A stretch of DNA of 64,000 bases from Stutzerimonas stutzeri. GTDB lineage: Bacteria > Pseudomonadota > Gammaproteobacteria > Pseudomonadales > Pseudomonadaceae. The notes under the pieces are model-generated. The model was given only the letters and a program-made list of their open reading frames with translations, made no database searches and was not told the DNA's origin. The DNA lies in contig NC_015740.1 of assembly GCF_000219605.1 (NCBI RefSeq), forward strand, positions 3,410,001-3,474,000, written 5' to 3'. Positions 52,147-64,000 of this stretch are shown here, piece by piece (the stretch's first letter is position 1; every line of letters begins with the position of its first letter). Made by a program: the position numbers and the translations under genes.

Positions 52147-53154
52147 CTACTTGAAGTTGCGCTTCACCAGCCGCTCCAGCCAGCCGACGATGCCGGAGCG
52201 GAACAGCAGCACGCAGAGCACGAAGATCACGCCGAGAATCACGTGCACCCATTCGCCCAGCGGTCCATTGGACAGGTAGCTCTGCAGCGTCACCACCACC
52301 GTGGCGCCCACCAGCGGGCCGAGGATGGTGCCGACCCCGCCGAGCAGGGTCATCAGGATCACCTCGCCCGACATGTGCCAGTGCGCGTCGGTCAGCGAGG
52401 CCAGCTGGAACACCACGGTCTTGGTCGAGCCGGCCAGCCCCGCCAGCGCCGCCGAGATGACGAAGGCCAGCAGCTTGTGCCGATCGACGTTGTAGCCCAG
52501 CGACACGGCGCGCGGTTCGTTCTCGCGGATGGCCTTGAGCACCTGACCGTACGGGGAGTGGATGGTGCGCTGGATGATGGCGAAGCCGAGGACGAACACC
52601 GCCAGCACGAAGTAGTACATCGCCAAGTTGTTCTTCATGTCGACAAGGCCGAACAGGTGCCCGCGCGGCACACCCTGCAGGCCGTTCTCGCCGCCGGTGA
52701 ACGGCGCCTGGACGAAGACGAAGAACACCAACTGCGCCAGCGCCAGGGTGATCATCGCGAAATAGATGCCCTGCCTGCGGATCGCCAGCATGCCGAACAG
52801 CGCACCGAGCACCGTCGAGGCCAGGGTGCCGGCGAGAATACCCAGTTCGGTACTGAGCCCGCTGTAGCTGCTCAGCATGTAGCCTGTGATGTAGCCGCCG
52901 GTGGCGAAGAACGCCGCATGGCCGAAGGACAGCAGGCCCGCGTAGCCCAGCAGCAGGTTGAAGGCGCAGGCGAACAGCGCGAAGCACAGCAGCTTCATCA
53001 GGAACACCGGGTACACCGCCAGCGGCGCCAGCAGCGCGATCACCAGCAGCACCGCATAGAAGATCTTCTGCCGCCGCGCCGCCGCATGCCGGCGCTCACG
53101 CACCACACTTGCCTGCAGCACCGAGGCCGCCTGGGTATTGGCCGTATTCGTCAT
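52147..53154 (-). CDS. livM: LIV-type ABC importer, inner-membrane permease LivM
   Basis: A 335-residue permease of the hydrophobic amino-acid (HAAT) ABC family, with about 8-10 membrane segments and the family features NLLLGYAGLLSFGHAAFFATGGY near residue 65 and the cytoplasmic coupling loop QVLKAIRENEPRAVSLGY near 205. The first ATG (53160) overlaps the livH stop, but AAGGAGG is correctly spaced only for the ATG at 53154. Last gene of the livG-livF-SBP-livH-livM operon. Confidence 0.93.
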   Translation of the reverse strand: MTNTANTQAASVLQASVVRERRHAAARRQKIFYAVLLVIALLAPLAVYPVFLMKLLCFALFACAFNLLLGYAGLLSFGHAAFFATGGYITGYMLSSYSGLSTELGILAGTLASTVLGALFGMLAIRRQGIYFAMITLALAQLVFFVFVQAPFTGGENGLQGVPRGHLFGLVDMKNNLAMYYFVLAVFVLGFAIIQRTIHSPYGQVLKAIRENEPRAVSLGYNVDRHKLLAFVISAALAGLAGSTKTVVFQLASLTDAHWHMSGEVILMTLLGGVGTILGPLVGATVVVTLQSYLSNGPLGEWVHVILGVIFVLCVLLFRSGIVGWLERLVKRNFK

Positions 53155-53156
53155 GC

Positions 53157-54044
53157 TCATGCCTCCTTCCCGAAGAGTCCCGCAGGACGAATCAACAACA
53201 CCGCCACCATGACCAGAAACACCACGGTATTGGCCGCTTCCGGATAGAAGACCTTGGTCAGCCCTTCGATCAGGCCCATGGCCACACCGGTGACGATGGC
53301 GCCGAGGATCGAGCCCATGCCGCCGATCACCACCACGGCGAACACCACGATCAGCAGATTCGAGCCCATGCCCGGCGTCACCGCGTAGATCGGCGCCGCC
53401 AGCACGCCGGCGAAGGCCGCCAGGGCCACGCCATAGCCGTAGGTCAGGGTCACCAGCAGCGGTACGTTGATGCCGAAGCCCTGCATCAGCTTGGGGTTCT
53501 CCGTGCCGGCACGCAGATACGAGCCCAGGCGGGTGCGTTCGATGACGTACCAGGTCGCCAGGCACACCACCAGCGCGGCGACGATCACCCAGGCGCGGTA
53601 GGTCGGCAGGAACATGAAGCCGAGGTTGAAGCCGCCGCGCAGCAGTTCCGGCATCGGGTAGGACGAGCCGGACACCCCGAACAGCTTGACGAAGCTGCCC
53701 TCGACGATCAGCGCCAGACCGAAGGTCAGCAGCAGCCCGTAGAGATGGTCCTCATTGGCGATGCGCCGCAGCAGCCCGCGCTCGATGGCCATGCCGAGGC
53801 AGCCCACCAGCAGCGGCGACAGCACCAGTGCGACCCAGTAGCTCACGCCCAGGTAGTTCAGCCCGAGGAAGGCGACGAAGGCGCCCAGCATGTACTGCGC
53901 GCCGTGGGCGAAGTTGATGATGCGCAGCAGCCCGAAGATGATCGCCAGGCCCAGGCTCAGCAGCGCGTAGAACGCCCCGTTGATGAGGCCGAGCAGCAGC
54001 TGCCCGAGCAGCACGCTCAGAGGAACGCCGAATACGAGAGTCAT
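53157..54044 (-). CDS. livH: LIV-type ABC importer, inner-membrane permease LivH
   Basis: A 295-residue permease with about 8 membrane segments. Typical motifs are LLGLINGAFYALLSLGLAIIFGLLRIINFAHG at the N-terminus and the coupling loop RTRLGSYLRAGTENPKLMQGFGIN near residue 170-195. It forms the transmembrane pore with LivM. It lies 69 bases after the binding-protein gene. Confidence 0.95.
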   Translation of the reverse strand: MTLVFGVPLSVLLGQLLLGLINGAFYALLSLGLAIIFGLLRIINFAHGAQYMLGAFVAFLGLNYLGVSYWVALVLSPLLVGCLGMAIERGLLRRIANEDHLYGLLLTFGLALIVEGSFVKLFGVSGSSYPMPELLRGGFNLGFMFLPTYRAWVIVAALVVCLATWYVIERTRLGSYLRAGTENPKLMQGFGINVPLLVTLTYGYGVALAAFAGVLAAPIYAVTPGMGSNLLIVVFAVVVIGGMGSILGAIVTGVAMGLIEGLTKVFYPEAANTVVFLVMVAVLLIRPAGLFGKEA

Positions 54045-54113: not shown

Positions 54114-55331
54114 TCAGTCCTTGGCGACCAGCTTGGTGCACTGGCTTTCGGCCAACGGCCGGTAGGCCTGGTCGCCGGGGATGGTGCTGACGATCTTGTA
54201 CAGGTCCCATTCGCCCTTGGACTCGGCCGGTGTCTTGACCTGCACCAGGTACATGTCGTGCACCATGCGGCCGTCCTCGCGAATCTGCCCACCCTTGGCG
54301 AACATGTCGTTGACCGGGGTCTTGGCCATCTGTGCACGCACCGCCACGGTTTCGTCGGTGCCGGCGGCCTTCACCGCGTTCAGGTAGTGGGTGGTCGCCG
54401 AGTAGATGCCGGCATGCACCATGGTCGGCATGCGCTTGGTGCGCTCGTAGTAGCGCTGGGCCCAGGCGCGGGTCTCCTCGTTCATGTCCCAGTACCAGCC
54501 GGTGGTGAGCATCAGGCCCTGGGTCACTTCCAGGCCCATGGCGTGGATGTCGTTGAGGAACACCACCATGCCGGCGAGCTTCTGCCCGGACTGGGTGACG
54601 CCGAACTCGCTGGCGGTCTTCAGCGAGTTGACGGTATCGGCGCCGGCGTTGGCCAGGGCGATCACCTCTGCGCCGGAGCCCTGGGCCTGCAGCATGTAGG
54701 AGGAGAAATCGCTGCTGGGGAACGGATGGCGAACCTTGCCGACGATGCTGCCGCCATCACCTTCCACCACCTTGGTGATGTCGGCTTCCATGGCGTGGCC
54801 GAAGGCATAGTCGGCAGTGAGGATGTACCAGCTCTTGCCGCCATCGGCGAGCACCGCCTTCGCCGTGCCGTTGGCCAGCGCGTAGGTGTCGTAGGTCCAG
54901 TGGATATGGTTTGGCGAGCAGAACTCGTTGGTGATGCTGGAGGCCGCCGCGCCGGAGATCAGCGCCAGCTTGCCGCCCTGCTCCACCACCTTGCTCGCCG
55001 CCAGCACCACGGAGCTGGCGACCATGCCGGTCACCATGTCGACGTTGCGCTCGTCGATCCACTGGCGCACGGTGTTGGCGCCGACGTCCGGCTTGTTCAG
55101 GTCATCGGCATGGAAGACGACGATCTTCTTGCCGTCGACCGTGCCGCCGAAATCCTCCACCGCCATCTTCAGCGCCTCCAGGCCGCCGGGGCCGGAGAGG
55201 TCGCGGTAGGTACCGGACATGTCGGCCAGATAGCCGATACGGATTTCGTCGTTGCTGATCTCGGCCTGGGCGGCCGTGGCGATCAGGGAAGCAGCCAGGA
55301 TGGCGCTTGCGCGCTTGCGGAAAAAGCTCAT
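54114..55331 (-). CDS. LIV-type ABC importer, periplasmic substrate-binding protein
   Basis: A 405-residue periplasmic protein of the LivJ/LivK superfamily. Signal peptide cut after AAQA (residue 23). The mature start EIRIGYLADMSGTYRDLSGPGG and the hinge segment DMVTGMVASSVVLAASKV belong to the branch often annotated simply as ABC substrate-binding protein, not the classical leucine-binding one. Substrate unknown; a carboxylate or branched-chain compound fits the neighbours. ATG 55331 starts the signal peptide. Confidence 0.94.
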   Translation of the reverse strand: MSFFRKRASAILAASLIATAAQAEISNDEIRIGYLADMSGTYRDLSGPGGLEALKMAVEDFGGTVDGKKIVVFHADDLNKPDVGANTVRQWIDERNVDMVTGMVASSVVLAASKVVEQGGKLALISGAAASSITNEFCSPNHIHWTYDTYALANGTAKAVLADGGKSWYILTADYAFGHAMEADITKVVEGDGGSIVGKVRHPFPSSDFSSYMLQAQGSGAEVIALANAGADTVNSLKTASEFGVTQSGQKLAGMVVFLNDIHAMGLEVTQGLMLTTGWYWDMNEETRAWAQRYYERTKRMPTMVHAGIYSATTHYLNAVKAAGTDETVAVRAQMAKTPVNDMFAKGGQIREDGRMVHDMYLVQVKTPAESKGEWDLYKIVSTIPGDQAYRPLAESQCTKLVAKD

Positions 55332-55407
55332 GTAGTCACCACTCTCGATTGTTTTTGTTGTGGTTCGGGCCGGCATCCACTGCGGCCGGTTTACAGCTTC
55401 CTGGGGC

Positions 55408-56124
55408 TCACACCCCGAGACAGGAATTGAGGAACTCCTTTTTCGAATCCAGGTCGGCCGCCTCGATCTCTTCGATGATGCGGCCGTGCTCCATCACGTA
55501 ATGACGGTCGGCCAATGGCGCGGCGAAACGGAAGTTCTGCTCTACCAGGACGATGGTCAGGCCGCGCTGCTTGAGCTTGATCAGCACCTCGCCGAGCTTC
55601 TGCACGATGACCGGCGCCAGGCCTTCGGTGATCTCGTCGAGCAGCAGCAGGTTGGCGCCGGTGCGCAGGATGCGCGCCATGGCCAGCATCTGCTGCTCGC
55701 CGCCGGAGAGCCGCGTGCCCTGGCTGAAACGACGCTCATACAGGTTGGGAAACATTTCGTAGAGCTCGTCCAGGCTCATGCCGCCGCTGCGCACCGTGGG
55801 CGGCAGCAGCAGGTTCTCCTCGACGCTCAGGCTGGCGAAGATGCCCCGCTCTTCCGGGCAATAGCCGACGCCCAGCCGTGGAATCTGGTGGGCCGGCATG
55901 CCGATGGTCTCGTTGCCGTTGACCACGATGGAGCCGGTGCGGCGCCCGACCATGTTCATGATCGCCCGCAGCGTGGTGGTGCGCCCGGCGCCGTTGCGCC
56001 CGAGCAGCGTCACCAGCTCGCCGCGGCCAACCACCAGATCGACACCGTGAAGGATGTGCGACTCGCCGTAAAAGGCATGAAGGTCGCTGATGCGCAGCTG
56101 ATCGCGATCCATGGGTGGATTCAT
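55408..56124 (-). CDS. livF: LIV-type ABC importer, ATPase LivF with Lys-to-Arg change in Walker A
   Basis: A 238-residue ABC ATPase of the LivF type. The signature RLSGGEQQML, Walker B LLLLDEITEGLAP and H-loop region are normal. The Walker A loop reads GRNGAGRTTT: the invariant lysine is arginine (Arg48, codon CGC at 55983-55981). LivG in the same operon has the normal lysine. The ATG overlaps the livG stop by 4 bases. Confidence 0.94.
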   Translation of the reverse strand: MNPPMDRDQLRISDLHAFYGESHILHGVDLVVGRGELVTLLGRNGAGRTTTLRAIMNMVGRRTGSIVVNGNETIGMPAHQIPRLGVGYCPEERGIFASLSVEENLLLPPTVRSGGMSLDELYEMFPNLYERRFSQGTRLSGGEQQMLAMARILRTGANLLLLDEITEGLAPVIVQKLGEVLIKLKQRGLTIVLVEQNFRFAAPLADRHYVMEHGRIIEEIEAADLDSKKEFLNSCLGV

Positions 56125-56897
56125 GCGTGCGCCTCCTCGAGTGTCGCGGCTTCGCTGCCGAGATAGGCTTCGCGCACCTGCGGGTTGGCCGAAACGCTTT
56201 CGTAATCGCCCTCGGCGAGCACCGAGCCACGCGCCAGCACAGTGATGCGATCGCACAGGCGGCTGACCACGCTGAGGTTGTGCTCGACCATCAGCACCGT
56301 GCGGTTGGCCGCGGCCTTGCGCACCAGTTCGACGACCATGTCCACGTCTTCGCTGCCCATACCCTGGGTCGGTTCGTCGAGCAGCAGCACGAAGGGGTCG
56401 AGCGCCAGGGTGGTGGCCAGCTCCAGCGCGCGCTTGCGGCCGTAGGGCAGCTCGACGGCGAGGGTCTGGGCGAAGGATTGCAGGTCCACTTCGGCGAGCA
56501 GCTGCATCACCTGATCGTCCAGCTCGCGCAGGCTGCGTTCGGACTTCCAGAAGTGGAAGGAGGTGCCCATCTTCTGCTGCAGCGCGACGCGCACGTTCTC
56601 CAGCACGCTCATGTGGCCGAACACTGCGGATATCTGGAACGAGCGCACCAGGCCGAGCCGGGCGATCTCGTTGGCCTTCATCGAGGTGATGTTCTTGCCG
56701 CGATAAAGGATCTCGCCGCGAGTGGGCGTGAGGAATTTGGTGAGCAGGTTGAATACGGTGGTCTTGCCGGCCCCGTTGGGACCGATAAGCGCATGGATAT
56801 GACCCTGACGGACCTTCAGATCGACGGAATCCACGGCGGTGAATCCGCGGAATTCCTTGGTCAGGCCGCGCGTTTCCAGCACAAACTCTGGTTCCAT
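56121..56897 (-). CDS. livG: LIV-type ABC importer, ATPase LivG
   Basis: A 258-residue ABC ATPase. Walker A GPNGAGKTT (near residue 40), Walker B FVLLLDEPTQGM, and the LivG feature LVRSFQISAVFGHMSVLENV are present. The usual LSGGQ signature reads LPYGRKRALE, a known variant of this branch. It is the first gene of the importer operon, 58 bases downstream of a LiuR-like palindrome. Confidence 0.95.
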   Translation of the reverse strand: MEPEFVLETRGLTKEFRGFTAVDSVDLKVRQGHIHALIGPNGAGKTTVFNLLTKFLTPTRGEILYRGKNITSMKANEIARLGLVRSFQISAVFGHMSVLENVRVALQQKMGTSFHFWKSERSLRELDDQVMQLLAEVDLQSFAQTLAVELPYGRKRALELATTLALDPFVLLLDEPTQGMGSEDVDMVVELVRKAAANRTVLMVEHNLSVVSRLCDRITVLARGSVLAEGDYESVSANPQVREAYLGSEAATLEEAHA

Positions 56898-56954
56898 GGG
56901 GTGCCCTCTAACCTTGATTGTTGTTGTTGGTTATGGCGCAGGTCGCTGCATGAC

Positions 56955-56972
56955 CTTTACGTAAACGATAAC
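56955..56972. promoter_or_regulatory. LiuR-like operator upstream of livG
   Basis: CTTTACGTAAACGATAAC. It matches 14 of 18 positions of the perfect palindrome found before liuA; the left half-site is perfect, the right one degenerate. It lies 58 bases before the livG start. Confidence 0.6.
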
Positions 56973-57155
56973 AATCGGTTTCCGCAAACGGCAAGTGGCT
57001 TTTTCAAACAGGTGATTGAGCGATAAAAGCGTGCAGTTTGCAGGCAAATAGCCAGCATCGAATCACATCGAGAGCAGTTACCCCTAGGCGCACATTTTCC
57101 TGTTCGCCCCGTTCGCGGAGCACTGGAAAGCCGAAGGCAGCGTCTCTAATCACGC

Positions 57156-57183
57156 GAAAAAGCCGGGCCTGTGCGGCCCGGAA
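57156..57183 (-). terminator. Terminator of the OprD porin gene
   Basis: CCGGGCC (57163-57169) / GGCCCGG (57175-57181) with a 5-base loop. The minus-strand tail is CTTTTTCG. Confidence 0.85.
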
Positions 57184-57216
57184 ATTCCAACGAGGAGGTT
57201 CACTGCGGCGTTGCGG

Positions 57217-58491
57217 TTACCACAACGGCAGGCTGTAGCTGACGATGACGCGGTTTTCGTCCATATCGCTCTGGAAGTTGCTGCGGGTGGTGGCATTGCG
57301 CAGCTTGAGACCGAGGTTCTTCAGCGGGCCGCTCTGGATGACATAGGCGATATCGGTGTTGCGCTCCCAGGTCTTGCCTTCGCTGGCGCCGACACCGCGG
57401 TCGACGTTGTCACCCGAGACGTAACGGGTCATCAGCGTCAGCCCAGGGATGCCCATGGCAGCGAAGTCGTAGTCGTAGCGGACCTGCCAGGAACGCTCGT
57501 CCTCGTTGCCGAAGTCGTTGATCTGCAGCAGGTTGATCAGCGCGTTATCGCCCCCGGCGACGTAGGCGAAACCGGTGTCGCCGCGCATGTGCTGATAGCC
57601 ACCGGTGAAGCCGTGGCCGCCGTGCCTGTAGGTGAACAGTGCGCCGAACGCATCGTTGTCGACATTGCTGCCGCCATCGTCGCTCGAGCGCACGAAGCGC
57701 AGGTCGGTCTTGAAACTCTGCTTGTCGCCGAGCGGCAGTACATGGATCAGGTTGAAGTTGTGCTGGTCGTAAATGCCATCCAGCCCACCGTAGTAGTAGC
57801 TGGTGGCCAGCTGCGGCGACCAGTCGTAGCGACCACCGGCGAAGAGGAACTCGTCGCTGGTAGTTCCGCCACTGCCGAAGGTAATGTTGCGCCGGCCGCC
57901 GTTGAAGACGGTCATTTCCTCGTTGTCCGAAGAGTCGCGCTGGTTGACCCGGTCCAGCTTGCCCAGGTCCAGCGTCAGACCGCTGACCTCCTTGCTCTGC
58001 AGCCAGGCACCACGGTAGGTCTGTGGCAGCAGACGGCTGTCGTTGCGCATCAGCACGGGCAGCACCGGCTGCAGGGTGCCGACGTGCAGGGTGGTGGCTG
58101 ACAGCTTGGCCTTTGCCGTCAGGCCGGCCGAGCCGTAATCGTCCTGGGCGCGGTTAGGCGCGTTGCGATCACGCTGCAGGATGCCGGTGCCGGTACGGTC
58201 CGGACTCGAATCGAGCTTCACGCCCAGCAGCCCGACGGCGTCCAGGCCGAAGCCGACCGGTCCTTCGGTGTAGCCGGATTCCATCTTCAGGATGAAGCCC
58301 TGGGCCCACTCCTCGGCCTTGGACTGAGTGGCGCCCGATTGCCGGAAGTCGCGGTTCATATAGAAGTTGCGCAGTTCGACAGCGGCCTTGCTGTCTTCGA
58401 TGAAAGCGGCCGAGGCCACGTTCGATGCACCGAGGGCGATGGCCGCGATGCTGGCGGACAGGACGGTTCGGCTTGCTGGTTTCAGTTGCAT
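57217..58491 (-). CDS. OprD family outer-membrane porin
   Basis: A 424-residue porin of the OprD/OccD-OccK family, which takes up small carboxylates and amino acids. Signal peptide cut near residue 28 (NVASA|AFIED). Family marks are FIEDSKAAVELRNFYMNRDF at the start, ILKMESGYTEGPVGFGLDAVGLLGVKLD near residue 70, and the C-terminal strand ending RVIVSYSLPLW. Third gene behind the acyl-CoA ligase on the same strand, so probably in the same operon; substrate unknown. Confidence 0.95.
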   Translation of the reverse strand: MQLKPASRTVLSASIAAIALGASNVASAAFIEDSKAAVELRNFYMNRDFRQSGATQSKAEEWAQGFILKMESGYTEGPVGFGLDAVGLLGVKLDSSPDRTGTGILQRDRNAPNRAQDDYGSAGLTAKAKLSATTLHVGTLQPVLPVLMRNDSRLLPQTYRGAWLQSKEVSGLTLDLGKLDRVNQRDSSDNEEMTVFNGGRRNITFGSGGTTSDEFLFAGGRYDWSPQLATSYYYGGLDGIYDQHNFNLIHVLPLGDKQSFKTDLRFVRSSDDGGSNVDNDAFGALFTYRHGGHGFTGGYQHMRGDTGFAYVAGGDNALINLLQINDFGNEDERSWQVRYDYDFAAMGIPGLTLMTRYVSGDNVDRGVGASEGKTWERNTDIAYVIQSGPLKNLGLKLRNATTRSNFQSDMDENRVIVSYSLPLW

Positions 58492-58594
58492 AGCTTTCTC
58501 TCTTGTTGTTGTGATCGTTGATGCAGCTGTTGAGTCCGGCTGCGAACTGCCCGGGCTCGGATTACCACGTCATGCGGTAATGCGGTGCTCGCGC

Positions 58595-59200
58595 TCAGCG
58601 CGCGGGGCTCCTGGGCACGCGGCCCAGCAGATAGAACTCGTCGTTGGGCGGGGTCCGTGCCATGGACACCAGGCGGTTGGAGAGGCCGAACAGTCCGGCG
58701 ATAGCGCCGATGTCCCAGATGTCATCGAGGCTGAAACCCTGAGCCTCCAGGCGTGCCTGCCAGGCGTCGTCCAGCACGCCACGGCCGGCGGCCAGGTGCA
58801 GGGCGAAGTCGAGCATGGTGCGCTGGCGTTCGGAGATCGGCGCGGTGCGGTAATTGACGGCGATCTGGTCCGCCAGCTGCGCGTCCTTGGCGAGGATGCG
58901 CAGGATCGCGCCATGGGCGACCACGCAATACAGGCAGCCGTGGTCGGCGCTGACCGCGACCACGATCATCTCCTTCTCGGCCTGGGTCAGGCTGTCGGCT
59001 TCGCGCTCCATCAGCGCATCGTGATAGGCGAAGAAGGCGCGAAACTCCGCCGGCCGATGGGCCAGCATGAGAAACACGTTGGGAATGAAACCGGCCTTTT
59101 CCTGCACGGCGAGAATCCGCTCGCGCAGATCGCAGGGCAGTGTGTCGAGGCTGTCGGGCAGCGGAAAACGGCTGATCGACTGAGTAGTAGGCAGCGCCAT
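58595..59200 (-). CDS. AhpD-like / carboxymuconolactone decarboxylase-family peroxidase-related protein
   Basis: A 201-residue protein with the AhpD core motif: Glu77, Cys89-x2-Cys92-x3-His96 in HGCLYCVVAHGA. These residues are redox active in AhpD. The family (peroxidase-related, Atu0492-type) is poorly characterised and often sits in fatty-acid or aromatic catabolic operons, as here. ATG 59200 has GGAG at the right distance; an ATG at 59212 has none. Confidence 0.9.
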   Translation of the reverse strand: MALPTTQSISRFPLPDSLDTLPCDLRERILAVQEKAGFIPNVFLMLAHRPAEFRAFFAYHDALMEREADSLTQAEKEMIVVAVSADHGCLYCVVAHGAILRILAKDAQLADQIAVNYRTAPISERQRTMLDFALHLAAGRGVLDDAWQARLEAQGFSLDDIWDIGAIAGLFGLSNRLVSMARTPPNDEFYLLGRVPRSPAR

Positions 59201-59257
59201 GGAAAGCTCCATTTCGGATGAGCGAATGGCCGGCCGGGCGAACCCGGCCGGTGCCGG

Positions 59258-60940
59258 TCAGTGCTGTTCGCTGATGCCCAGCTCGACCACGCTGATCTCG
59301 CGCATGCGGAACTTCTGGACCTTGCCGCTGATGGTCATCGGGAAGTCGTCGACGAACTTGATGTGCCGCGGCGTCTTGAAGTGGGCAATGCGGCCCTTGC
59401 AGAACTCGCGCAGCGCCTCGGCCTCGACCTGATGGCCCGGGTGCAGCTTGACCCAGGCGACGATCTCCTCGCCGAACTTGCTGTCCGGCACGCCGATCAC
59501 CTGCACGTCGGCCACCGCCGGGTGGGTGAAGAGGAATTCCTCGATCTCGCGCGGGTACACGTTTTCGCCGCCGCGGATGATCATGTCCTTGTTGCGGCCG
59601 ACGATCTTGATGTAACCCTCGTCGTCCATCACCGCGAGGTCGCCAGTGTGCATCCAGCGCGCGCCGTCGATGGCCTCGCGGGTGGCATCCGGGTTGTTCC
59701 AGTAGCCGAGCATCACGCTGTAGCCGCGGGTGCACAGTTCGCCGATCTGCCCGCGCGGCACAACCGCGCCGTGCTCGTCGACGATCTTGCTTTCCAGGTG
59801 CGGCTGGGTGCGGCCGACGCTGGTGACGCGGCGTTCCAGGTCGTCATCGGCACTGGTCTGGGTCGAGACCGGGCTGGTTTCGGTCATGCCGTAGGCAATC
59901 TGCATTTCGGCCAGGTGCATGTCGTCGATGACGCGCTTCATCACCTCGATCGGGCAGGTGGAGCCGGCCATGATGCCGGTGCGCAGGCTGCTCAGGTCCA
60001 GCGACTGGCGCTCCGGATGGTCGAGCATGGCGATGAACATGGTCGGCACGCCGTACATGCCGGTGGCCTTTTCCTCGGCCGCAGCCTGCAACGCGGCCAG
60101 CGGCTCGAAGGCGGCGCTCGGGTAGATCATGGTGGTGCCGTGGGTGACGCAGCCGAGGTTGCCCATGACCATGCCGAAGCAGTGGTACAGCGGCACCGGG
60201 ATCACCAGGCGGTCGTGCTCGGTCAGCCTGAGGCTCTCGCCGACCATGTAGCCGTTGTTGAGGATGTTGTAGTGGCTGAGCGTGGCGCCCTTGGGGAAGC
60301 CCGTGGTGCCGGAGGTGTACTGGATGTTGATGGGGTCGTCGAACTGCAGGCGCTCGCCGCACTGGCGCAACTGCTCGGGACCGACCTGCTCGGCCATCTC
60401 CATCAGCGCCTGCCACTGCAGCATGCCGTCCACCGGCTTGTCGCACAGGCTGATCACCCCGCGCAGCTCGGGCAGCATATGGCTTTGCAGGGCCCCGACG
60501 GCGGCGCTTTCCAGCTCCGGCAGCAGCTCGTGGAGCATGGCGTGGTAATCGGACGTCTTGAAGGCATCGGCGCAGATCAGCCAGCGGCAGCCGGACTGTT
60601 TCAAGGCGTACTCGAGTTCGCTGAGGCGGTAGGCGGGATTGATGTTGACCAGCACCACGCCGATCTTCGCCGTGGCGAACTGGGTGATGCACCACTGGGC
60701 ATTGTTCGGTGACCAGATGCCCACTCGTTCGCCAGCTTGCAGTCCGAGGGCCAGCAGGCCACGCGCGCAACGGTCCACCGCCTCCGCCAGTTCCGCCCAG
60801 GTGTAACGCAGCTGCTGATGGCGCACCACCAGGGCCTCACGCTGGGGGAAGCGCTCCACGGTACGATCGAACGCCGCGCCGATGGTCATGGGCAACAGGG
60901 GTTTGCTCTGCGGTCCGCAGGTATAGCTCGGAAGACTCAT
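59258..60940 (-). CDS. Acyl-CoA synthetase (AMP-binding, fatty-acid-CoA ligase type)
   Basis: A 560-residue ANL-superfamily ligase that activates a carboxylic acid with ATP and CoA. P-loop-like [11 protein letters not shown] near residue 200, the YGMTETSP motif near 330, [21 protein letters not shown] near 430, and the catalytic lysine in the C-terminal [10 protein letters not shown]. The substrate is probably a branched or medium-chain acid given neighbours, which is inference. AGGAAA precedes the ATG. A LiuR-like operator is 79 bases upstream. AhpD-like and OprD genes follow on the same strand. Confidence 0.94.
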
Positions 60941-61019
60941 GACGATTTCCTCAGTCTTATGTTTGTTATGAGGCGTACTCGCAAGGGCGCTGGCGCTGCT
61001 GACAGTCACCCTAGGCCAC

Positions 61020-61037
61020 GATTACGTTAACGTAAAG
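61020..61037. promoter_or_regulatory. LiuR-like operator upstream of the acyl-CoA synthetase operon
   Basis: GATTACGTTAACGTAAAG, matching 16 of 18 positions of the liuA palindrome, with the central TTACGTTAACGTAA fully symmetric. It lies 79 bases upstream of the ligase start. Confidence 0.72.
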
Positions 61038-61220
61038 GTAACTAAGTGACAACATGTCGCGGAGTAGGCGAAAGTCGAGGGCGCGAGAAGGCAAATAGCC
61101 AGTATCCAGCGGTGTGGCGCGAGGGCGTTGCGGGTCAGATCAGACGGCCATGGCATGCCTGGATGCAGGCAATCGCGGCACGGATTCAGGAGCTTCGCAA
61201 TGATGCCGCGCGCTCCCCCA

Positions 61221-62243
61221 TCACGCGCATTCGCACTGGTACTCGTGATGGAAGTCCAGCGCAGCGAGGTTCTTGTCCTTGGCTTCGAGCATGATGTCGA
61301 AGCGATCCAGAAACTGAAACGCATAGCGATTCGTCCAGCGGTTCCACATGCGCTTGCTGTGCGCATAGAGGTCGCGCTTGCTGACCTGCTCCAGCAACTC
61401 GGGGATTTCCAGCTTCCGCTCCGGGGCGAAGCCCAGCTCCATCAGGCGCTCCGGCGGCTGCGAGTAATGCATGGTCGGCCGCACGCCGCGCCAGCTTTCC
61501 AGGATGCGCTCGATGCGCGGGTCGTCCGGCTCGATGTGGCGGTCCTCGTGAATCCAGCAGTGATGGATGTCCAGCACCACCGGCGCGAGGTCCGCGAGAC
61601 CCAGACAGTCGTCCAGGCCATAGGTCTTTTCGTCGTTCTCGAAGGTGATGCACTGGCGCGCCTCGGCCGACAGCCGCGGCCAAACGGCACGCACGCCCTC
61701 GGCGCCGAGCCGCCCGGCGATATGCAGGTTGCACTTGAAGTCCTGGAAGCGCCGGCCATAACCCATCATGCGGATCATGTCGGCGTGGTACTCGAATTCC
61801 GCCAGGCTGTTCTCCACCACCTGCGGCTTGTCCGACCCCAGCACGCAGTACTGGCCGGGATGCATCGACAGGCGGATGTCGTGGGCCCGCGCCAGCTCGC
61901 CGATCGCGGCGAAACCCGCCTCGAGGCGATTCCGTATCTCGGTGCGGCGATAAAACGGCGCGATCTCGGCATGACTGTAGAACGGCAGCAGGTCGCTGGA
62001 CAGCCGCAACATGCGCAGCATCGGCGGCAACGTCGCGACGTATTCGAGCAATACCCGCTGGGCGTTCAGGTTGTGCTCGACGATCTCCTCGAGCTTCGCT
62101 TCGGCCGCCTCGCGCCCCGCCGAGGCCATCCAGCGCAGCGTGGTGCTGCGCGGGTTGAAGGTGCGCTCGATGCGCTCCAGTTCCTTCAGCGAGAGGCTCT
62201 GTTGCGGATGGCGATACATGCAGGCGAAGCCGATACGGGGCAT
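61221..62243 (-). CDS. UV-damage endonuclease UvdE/UvsE
   Basis: A 340-residue TIM-barrel endonuclease that nicks DNA 5' to UV photoproducts, an alternative to UvrABC. It begins MPRIGFACMYRHPQQSLSLKELERIERTFNPRSTTLRWM, and metal-binding residues are spread along RLSMHPGQYCVL, ECITFENDEKTYG-like ITFENDEKTYG, VLDIHHCWIHED and MHYSQP. GAGGAATCC precedes ATG 62243. It lies between the two LiuR-like operators and is divergent from liuA; a role in the catabolic regulon is not expected. Confidence 0.92.
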   Translation of the reverse strand: MPRIGFACMYRHPQQSLSLKELERIERTFNPRSTTLRWMASAGREAAEAKLEEIVEHNLNAQRVLLEYVATLPPMLRMLRLSSDLLPFYSHAEIAPFYRRTEIRNRLEAGFAAIGELARAHDIRLSMHPGQYCVLGSDKPQVVENSLAEFEYHADMIRMMGYGRRFQDFKCNLHIAGRLGAEGVRAVWPRLSAEARQCITFENDEKTYGLDDCLGLADLAPVVLDIHHCWIHEDRHIEPDDPRIERILESWRGVRPTMHYSQPPERLMELGFAPERKLEIPELLEQVSKRDLYAHSKRMWNRWTNRYAFQFLDRFDIMLEAKDKNLAALDFHHEYQCECA

Positions 62244-62562
62244 GGATTCCTCGTGGATGACAGGCCGGCGCTCCGACCATTGCCTGTTTAGTCCCGCCCG
62301 CGCCGAGCCGAGTGCCCGACCGCCGACGAAACACCACCCGCGGCATCCATGGCCGGCGGCACCGCCCTTGCCGTGCACCTATGCTTGCAGAACGCCGCCC
62401 GCTGGCATGTTGACAGACCGCCGGCGGACCTTTACGTTAACGTAAAGTAGCGAGCAGCCAGTTCCCGAAGCCGCTCAGGCTGCGACCGGAGCGCCGGCCG
62501 GAACCCGCCGGATGCACGAATTCTCTGAACACAGAACAATTACAAGACAAGCAGGTGGCCCC
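62244..62562. other. Divergent intergenic region uvdE / liuA
   Basis: 319 bases between two divergent genes. A perfect 18-base palindrome (62430-62447) is the one clear site. No gene or RNA is recognised; the open frames here have no ribosome site. Confidence 0.6.
62430..62447. promoter_or_regulatory. LiuR-like operator upstream of liuA (perfect palindrome)
   Basis: CTTTACGTTAACGTAAAG, an 18-base perfect palindrome 115 bases before the liuA start. The known LiuR (MerR family) operator of proteobacterial leucine-catabolism genes has this type of sequence, as I recall it. The liuR gene itself is not in this window. Confidence 0.8.
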
Positions 62563-63726
62563 ATGAACTACTCCAGCCTCAATTTCGCCCTCGGTGAAAC
62601 CATCGACATGCTGCGCGAGCAGGTCCAGGCCTTCGTCGCCGCCGAGCTGGCGCCGCGCGCCGAGGCCATCGACCAGGACAACCTGTTCCCGGCCGACATG
62701 TGGAAGAAATTCGGCGAGATGGGTCTGCTCGGCGTCACCGTCTCCGAGGAATACGGCGGCGCCGGCCTTGGCTACCTGGCCCACGTGGTGGCGATGGAAG
62801 AGATCAGCCGCGGCTCGGCCTCGGTCGCCCTTTCCTACGGCGCCCACTCAAACCTGTGCGTCAACCAGATCAACCGCAACGGCAACCCCGAGCAGAAGGC
62901 CCGCTACCTGCCCAAGCTGATCAGCGGCGAACACGTCGGCGCGCTGGCCATGAGCGAGCCGAATGCCGGTTCCGACGTGGTATCCATGAAGCTGCGCGCA
63001 GAAAAGCGCGGCGACCGCTACGTGCTCAACGGCAGCAAGACCTGGATCACCAATGGCCCGGACGCCAACACCTATGTGATCTACGCCAAGACCGACCTGG
63101 ACAAGGGTCCGCACGGCATCACCGCCTTCATCGTCGAGCGCGACTGGAAAGGTTTCTCCCGCGGCAACAAGTTCGACAAGCTCGGCATGCGTGGCTCCAA
63201 CACCTGCGAGCTGTTCTTCGATGACGTCGAGGTGCCGCAAGAGAACGTGCTGGGCGTCGAGAACGGCGGCGTCAAGGTGCTGATGAGCGGCCTGGATTAC
63301 GAGCGCGTGGTACTGGCCGGCGGCCCGACCGGGATCATGCAGGCCTGCCTCGACGTGGTGGTGCCCTACATCCACGACCGCAAGCAGTTCGGTCAGAGCA
63401 TCGGCGAGTTCCAGTTCATTCAGGGCAAGGTGGCGGACATGTACACCCAGCTCAACGCCAGCCGTGCCTATCTCTACGCCGTCGCCCAGGCCTGCGACCG
63501 TGGCGAGACCACCCGCAAGGACGCCGCCGGGGTGATCCTCTATACCGCCGAAAACGCCACGCAGATGGCCCTGCAGGCGATCCAGATCCTCGGTGGCAAC
63601 GGCTATATCAACGAATTCCCCACCGGCCGCCTGCTGCGTGACGCCAAGCTCTACGAGATCGGCGCCGGCACCAGCGAGATCCGCCGGATGCTGATCGGAC
63701 GCGAGCTGTTCAACGAATCCAGGTGA
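62563..63726 (+). CDS. liuA: Isovaleryl-CoA dehydrogenase
   Basis: A 387-residue acyl-CoA dehydrogenase that oxidises isovaleryl-CoA to 3-methylcrotonyl-CoA in leucine breakdown. FAD and substrate motifs are [21 protein letters not shown] near 130-150, [17 protein letters not shown], and the C-terminal [36 protein letters not shown]. The glutamate near 250 ([13 protein letters not shown]) is the position used as catalytic base in isovaleryl-CoA dehydrogenases. ATG 62563 starts [12 protein letters not shown], the family start. liuB follows. Confidence 0.95.
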
Positions 63727-63837: not shown

Positions 63838-64000
63838 ATGGCCATCCTGCACACCCAGATCAATACCCGTTCGCCAGAGTTCGCCGCCAACAGCGCGGCG
63901 ATGCTCGAACAGGTGAACAACCTGCGCGCCCTGCTCGGCCGCGTCAGCGAAGGCGGCGGCGCCACCGCCCAGCAGCGCCATGTCTCACGCGGCAAGCTCC
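63838..64000 (+). CDS. liuB: 3-Methylcrotonyl-CoA carboxylase beta subunit, N-terminus (runs off window)
   Basis: Only the first 54 codons are visible: MAILHTQINTRSPEFAANSAAMLEQVNNLRALLGRVSEGGG, which is the typical start of the carboxyltransferase (beta) subunit. This enzyme carboxylates the product of LiuA. The ATG lies 111 bases after the liuA stop with a REP-like element between. Confidence 0.88.
   Translation, partial: MAILHTQINTRSPEFAANSAAMLEQVNNLRALLGRVSEGGGATAQQRHVSRGKL

Follow-up and report, generated by a model that had tools for sequence, protein, structure and literature searches.

What would lead a leucine degradation cluster, an operon for an acyl-CoA synthetase and an outer-membrane porin, and an ABC importer to share one palindromic sequence upstream of their first genes? 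The question is raised by a 64,000-nt stretch of the Stutzerimonas stutzeri genome (the window; the genome is a single contig of 4,547,930 bases), in which three related 18-base sites each precede one of these gene groups. From the evidence set out below, we consider it very probable that the sites are operators of the MerR-family regulator LiuR, covering the liu cluster, acs-ahpD-like-oprD and the liv-type importer.

56955..56972, minus strand, site A, LiuR-like candidate operator upstream of livG: CTTTACGTAAACGATAAC; 14/18 match to site C
61020..61037, minus strand, site B, LiuR-like candidate operator upstream of acs: GATTACGTTAACGTAAAG; 16/18 match to site C
62430..62447, plus strand, site C, perfect 18-bp palindrome upstream of liuA: CTTTACGTTAACGTAAAG

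The sites were named in an original prediction, whose letters and coordinates were correct on re-reading, as was its perfect palindrome at site C. Its 14/18 and 16/18 hold as matches to C; as palindromes in their own right, A and B are self-complementary at 10/18 and 14/18 positions. The gaps from site to gene start are 57 bases for A and livG (start at 56897), 79 for B and acs (60940) and 115 for C and liuA (62563), as predicted for acs and liuA; livG had been placed at 58. The genes concerned, with a hairpin between two of the groups, are as follows:

62563..63726, plus strand, liuA, isovaleryl-CoA dehydrogenase (acyl-CoA dehydrogenase family by Pfam domains; specific name from operon context)
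63838..64000, plus strand, start of liuB, carboxyl transferase, cut at the window end (full gene L003:2339-3946)
59258..60940, minus strand, acs, acyl-CoA synthetase, heading the site B operon (NF009233)
58595..59212, minus strand, AhpD-like peroxidase-related protein (TIGR01926, 173 bits against a cut-off of 81.8)
57217..58491, minus strand, OprD-family outer-membrane porin (PF03573)
57163..57181, minus strand, intrinsic-terminator-like hairpin between oprD and livG (7 G-C pairs, CTTTTTC tail)
56121..56897, minus strand, livG-like ABC ATPase, heading the site A operon (PF00005, PF12399)
55408..56124, minus strand, livF-like ABC ATPase (profile and Pfam matches)
54114..55376, minus strand, periplasmic binding protein (Peripla_BP_6; closest solved chains 3i09 and 3n0w)
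53157..54044, minus strand, ABC permease, livH-like (PF02653)
52147..53160, minus strand, second ABC permease, livM-like (PF02653)

liuA is the first gene of the cluster liuABCDE-scoAB-atoB-liuR, in which the liu enzymes are followed by two CoA-transferase subunits, a thiolase and a MerR protein. The ligase encoded by acs matches NF009233 (fatty acid CoA ligase family) with 971.4 bits against a cut-off of 832, and the porin belongs to the OprD family (PF03573, 512 bits, profile positions 2-393 of 394). The two ATPases fall far short of the NCBIfam equivalog models for LivG (191 of 362 bits) and LivF (166.2 of 441). Given the hairpin that separates oprD from livG, the importer is probably transcribed from a promoter of its own, apart from acs-ahpD-like-oprD, although terminator-like sites of any strength number 6 in the region versus 6.9 expected in shuffles.

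How unusual are such sites? Within the window, the only 18-mer at five or fewer mismatches from C, besides A and B, is a frame of A offset by 6 bases, so that the earlier statement that there is no further copy stands. At three or fewer mismatches, two were found in the window against 0.01 expected by chance; in the whole genome, this limit returns two places, B and C alone, with one hit for the reversed-pattern control. A looser core, TTTACGTNNACGTAAA, occurs in the genome at nine places with up to two mismatches, A, B and C included (control 0), and TTKACGTNNACGTMAA at seven places with up to one mismatch (control 0), the two scans giving 11 distinct places in combination. With nine places against none for the control, the sites stand above background in the genome; random scatter of the motif had been named in advance as speaking against the prediction. 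We also built a matrix from the motif instances (111, of which 53 are distinct) of 59 loci under names other than Stutzerimonas, all within the 75 loci L031-L105. Site C scores 34.8, B 26.3 and A 20.3; the highest score in 2 Mb of first-order, composition-matched random DNA was 13.6, and elsewhere in the window, outside the three site regions, the score never exceeds 2.5.

The likely regulator is a 132-aa MerR protein (PF13411, PF09278) encoded beyond the window, eight genes downstream of liuA (G000:C1:3482197-3482595, in contig coordinates). There are 12 MerR-domain matches in the genome, and one closes the liu cluster. The protein stays below the cut-off of all six NCBIfam models that it matched, all of them metal sensors (bits versus cut-off: CueR 64/147.4, ZntR 52.8/167.95, MerR 53.1/150.85, CadR-PbrR 46.9/151.45). 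Its relatives (60-87% identity) adjoin liu genes in the listed loci of Pseudomonas, Halomonadaceae, Marinobacter and Oceanospirillales. What one would look for in a LiuR regulon was found, namely, a MerR gene encoded with the liu genes and a shared palindrome conserved alongside the regulator. Assignment of the motif to LiuR is likely, through linkage to the LiuR gene together with an apparent likeness to its operator. A matrix scan of L003, which holds the cluster, gave no site directly upstream of liuR. Directly downstream of liuR lies a DctPQM-type TRAP transporter (L003:11157-14650), before which there is no LiuR-like site. That LiuR is a MerR-family repressor known in proteobacteria, as originally stated, agrees with excerpts of PMC3223726 (branched-chain amino acid genes) and PMC8871633 (liu of P. 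aeruginosa).

The case is carried by conservation. The named relatives comprise the best 80 of at least 599 public-genome candidates found with acs (1.6 Mb in total). The window-derived core TTTACGTNNACGTAAA occurs there at 146 places with up to two mismatches, compared with four for the reversed control (37, 66 and 43 places at zero, one and two mismatches, versus 0, 0 and 4), mostly upstream of LiuR, liuA, acs or livG. As these counts rest on a fixed consensus, they are free of the circularity that partly affects the matrix-based counts, the matrix having been trained on some of the same loci. With that limit, and at a matrix score of at least 18, every one of the 52 loci that have a LiuR relative also has a site, in 51 of them no more than 300 bp upstream of the LiuR gene. 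A site is also present in 49 of the 51 loci with liuA (the exceptions are two from Thauera) and within 320 bp of livG in all 17 livG-bearing loci. Where the fetched stretch holds neither liuA nor LiuR, 13 of 15 loci lack a site and two have one. The motif thus tracks LiuR and the liu genes through Pseudomonas, Halomonadaceae, Marinobacter and Oceanospirillales. acs and liuA are divergent in most Pseudomonas loci. In Halomonadaceae and in several Oceanospirillales, acs forms one cluster with livG/livF and the liu genes, and most of these loci include a LiuR of at least 60% identity. Site C itself recurs upstream of liuA in L026, L027, L126 and L127. Two Stutzerimonas kunmingensis records contain a ligase 99% identical to this one.

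Within the genus, 41 genomes were searched; at the thresholds used, livG of this type was found in 27 and acs in 32, and 27 livG loci and 30 acs loci were examined, the window's own genome included. The 16-base core of site A is identical in 27/27 livG loci while its flanks vary. A site scoring 24.5-26.5 lies 85-101 bp upstream of acs in 30/30 acs loci, and the coding parts of these livG and acs loci never reach a score of 18. In the alignment upstream of livG (28 distinct sequences, L030 included), site A is the most conserved of 148 16-base windows (0.998 versus a median of 0.858). Site B, in the 31-sequence acs alignment, reaches 0.974 against a median of 0.70 and ranks only 19th of 188, as conservation in the acs leader is also high. 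The two genes also stay together, with an acs-livG spacing of 2.2-2.6 kb in 23 of the 24 other genomes in which they share a contig (the exception, G032, has 28.6 kb).

How might LiuR act at these sites? Each overlaps the second hexamer of a candidate promoter:

62410..62438, plus strand, candidate liuA promoter TTGACA-N17-TACGTT, second hexamer within site C
61024..61052, minus strand, candidate acs promoter TTGTCA-N17-TAACGT, second hexamer within site B
56965..56994, minus strand, candidate livG promoter TTGCCG-N18-TATCGT, second hexamer in the imperfect half of site A

These were placed by hand using our own criteria, and they remain candidates because a generic promoter scan of the region listed no promoter. 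In the acs -35 box TTG is invariant and TCA is kept in at least 90% of the 31 sequences; CTTGC is invariant in the livG -35 region of all 28; and TTGACA-N17-TACGTT can also be read toward liuA in the divergent acs/liuA region of a Pseudomonas locus (L032). Given the overlap with the candidate -10 boxes, repression by occlusion of the -10 regions appears most likely, and the off-consensus half of A may be invariant in the genus because it doubles as a -10 box. LiuR, encoded at the end of the liu cluster, would then occupy A, B and C along with the -10 regions of the three promoters, and once bound would shut off liuABCDE-scoAB-atoB-liuR, acs-ahpD-like-oprD and the liv-type ABC importer, until released by a leucine or isovalerate catabolite. 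The porin and importer would bring in free acid or a related substrate, which the ligase would activate and the liu enzymes degrade. The sites, their conservation, the linkage to LiuR and the gene content are observed; LiuR binding, repression, the inducer, the substrates and the operon limits are what we infer from them.

Several observations weigh against taking A, B and C as LiuR operators. A chance site within a coding frame at 4021182 scores 19.4 and is not separable by score from A (20.3), so that the proposed matrix scan, run with our self-built matrix, places all three sites above the random maximum without setting A apart from such a match. At exactly three mismatches, TTTACGTNNACGTAAA and its control are alike in the named loci (56 versus 48 places), and over the 41 genus genomes a loose pattern gives 231 places versus 117 for the control, half of them background. 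Because the loose pattern is so unspecific, position and conservation carry the argument rather than counts. Because the genus genomes are closely related, 27/27 and 30/30 do not count as independent observations. The two Thauera loci (L104, L105) carry liu genes and no site, and L031 and L072 carry a site where the fetched stretch contains no liuA and no LiuR. Ten of the 17 named livG loci (L065, L067, L068, L070, L074, L075, L078 and L082-L084) have the site at 238-295 bp from livG but at 51-102 bp from a divergent LiuR gene, so that it may serve LiuR alone; L083 has a weaker extra site at 126. Even so, the LiuR reading of the three sites is supported: the motif follows LiuR and liu over families, the ligase and importer genes neighbor liu, and the sites are conserved.

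An alternative that survives fairly well, although we think it the less probable account, is that the importer and porin have a general role in the uptake of amino acids or other substrates, with LiuR as one minor input. It draws first on a second shared element of 17 bases, ATRCTGGCTATTTGCCT, which lies ~50-70 bp upstream of A and B and whose presence at both promoters, of livG and of acs, points to another regulator:

57042..57058, minus strand, second shared element upstream of site A: ATGCTGGCTATTTGCCT
61089..61105, minus strand, second shared element upstream of site B: ATACTGGCTATTTGCCT

With up to two mismatches, ATRMTGGCYATTTGMCT occurs in the genome only at the livG and acs promoters (control 0); a differently cut version adds two places at two mismatches and ten more at three, with three control hits in all. 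Thirteen relatives, picked because most already showed the element, have one to four copies each of a slightly wider pattern (control 0), as variants at the same promoters plus a few other places. Upstream of other genes in relatives, over seven fetched stretches with element copies, the best LiuR score is 4.0. In three genomes the element lies between another frame and one that is probably autotransporter-esterase-like. AmrZ was considered as a possible binder. In the 3.15-kb locus of the sole Arc-type protein encoded in the genome, which we presume to be AmrZ, the AmrZ-type pattern GGCAAANNGCCNG matches once, with one mismatch and close to the end of the locus, and the pattern TGGCAAANNGCC has no match there.

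The same alternative draws on motifs of the Crc/Hfq type, whose targets resemble AANAANAA:

56918..56928, minus strand, two overlapping AACAACAA motifs in the livG leader
58503..58510, minus strand, AACAACAA motif in the oprD leader
L003:7835-7842, AACAACAA motif in the scoA leader

These three are the only leaders with the motif among 18 (the positions used for two of them, those of the second permease and uvsE, were off by 1-3 bases), where 0.009 would be expected per leader, and they suggest Crc/Hfq control of livG, oprD and scoA. The shortfall of the ATPases against the LivG/LivF cut-offs likewise favors general substrates, and it qualifies the original claim of a full uptake-to-degradation regulon, which is otherwise sustained by the conserved sites at the importer and ligase-porin operons. 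Against general substrates stands the neighborhood of liv genes, acs and liu, which is conserved over several families.

It is improbable that only B and C are LiuR operators and that A is a decayed or chance copy, with livG controlled otherwise. A does score lowest and has one half off consensus; however, its core is invariant throughout the genus while the flanks change, L030 has a closer match at the same place (TTAACGTTTACGTAAA), and the Marinobacter and Marinospirillum loci L088, L089 and L093 have sites 63-124 bp upstream of livG. Less likely by some distance is that the motif is bound by some other regulator that accompanies the liu genes. The name of the motif does depend on linkage to a MerR gene, but the site occurs in every one of the 52 loci with a MerR relative, and its place before the MerR gene in 51 is as expected of an autoregulator. 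Chance palindromes are the weakest explanation, with a negligible probability: isolated matches scoring like A do occur inside other coding frames, but window rarity, consensus versus control counts in relatives, matrix scores and, decisively for the set, conservation in the genus exclude chance for the three sites together.

If A, B and C are LiuR operators, does the regulon extend further? Six of the 11 genome places were set aside as likely chance. Four are inside frames resembling real genes (3530190, matrix score 3.7; 4307812, 10.1; 756912, 16.8; and 4021182). Two were dismissed on score alone: 822029 (8.0), ~90 bp upstream of a 361-aa frame that we take to be 4-hydroxyphenylpyruvate dioxygenase, and 3080084 (0.1), ~70 bp upstream of a 177-aa frame. 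Two other places are candidates that would widen the regulon:

G000:C1:3191827-3191842 (L018:1501-1516), LiuR-like site TTGACGTTTACGTAAA upstream of an alpha/beta hydrolase gene, matrix score 26.7
G000:C1:262096-262111 (L147:1501-1516), LiuR-like site 60 bp upstream of a TRAP binding protein gene, matrix score 22.6, above site A

Four other loci of the genus have the identical 16 letters before the same hydrolase gene with differing flanks; they were fetched by the pattern itself, and genomes without the pattern are uncounted. The hydrolase gene adjoins a dienelactone-hydrolase-like gene. The TRAP binding protein is close to the solved chains 7ug8 (ketoacid-binding) and 2hzk (SmoM), the latter presumably TakP. 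In the genus, its site coincides with the end of a UvrD-type helicase gene, and a TRAP membrane subunit is absent from the five neighboring frames tested. TRAP loci were fetched by protein, regardless of site (35 matching genomes out of 79, from which 30 loci were taken). Six of the seven from the genus have a palindromic site at 42-60 bp, with letters changed and form kept (matrix score 18 or more in four, 17.3 in one and 8.4 in one); the seventh is without a site. Among the 23 loci of the family's other genera, no score rises above 0, though the most distant of these may be paralogues. Tentatively, and with less than even confidence, one might go on to propose that LiuR runs a complete circuit of branched-acid acquisition (porin, importer, TRAP binding protein, hydrolase and ligase), with a second regulator at the 17-base element. 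That element being found in this genome only at the acs and livG promoters, the regulator would make uptake and activation tunable apart from degradation.

Between acs and liuA lies one gene that we do not judge part of the regulon:

61221..62243, minus strand, uvsE/UvdE UV endonuclease (PF03851)

Of the 30 genus loci, 13 have it next to acs, as do two of the 80 named loci (L026 and L027); L028-L030 have no uvsE and one shared site. We suggest that two operators between divergent genes, as in Pseudomonas, with uvsE later inserted between them, would yield B and C.

The proposed regulon gives a ligase, a porin and an ABC importer, for which annotation otherwise stops at the family, a place in a pathway, and predicts that this importer is the one to single out for isovalerate or leucine uptake. 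It is also testable in one genome, with three sites plus two candidates and an imperfect site A that is frozen across the genus.

How does this compare with known systems? The importer is of the same family as LivFGHMJ/K and has the same subunit make-up; it differs in that its ATPases are below the equivalog cut-offs and its binding protein is closest to 3i09 and 3n0w. The LiuR regulon of Shewanella and other proteobacteria is reportedly covered by RegPrecise and Kazakov et al. 2009, which may list LiuR-controlled porins or ABC importers. Neither kind of target is named in the portions of PMC3223726 and PMC5343134 consulted, which describe LiuR as a MerR-family repressor of Ile/Leu/Val degradation with lineage-specific targets and, in Shewanella, expansions into glutamate and threonine synthesis, the glyoxylate shunt and tyrR. 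On those portions, the system here shares with the Shewanella type a MerR-family repressor, liu genes as targets and a content that expands by lineage, whereas its expansions are a ligase, a porin and an ABC importer, with the hydrolase and the TRAP binding protein as candidates. In P. aeruginosa, according to excerpts, LiuR represses liu and liuR heads the cluster liuRABCDE (PMC8871633), and Crc affects LiuR and liuABC (PMC6235884). The likeness to that cluster, which is under LiuR, CbrAB and Crc/Hfq, is LiuR acting on liu with a Crc/Hfq-type second layer; the differences are that liuR is the first gene there and the last here, and that a LiuR-controlled importer is undescribed in the excerpts of the two papers. 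LiuR regulons are thus known, and the one proposed here appears, on well-supported grounds, to be a lineage-specific expansion into uptake, a sensible extension rather than a new kind of system.

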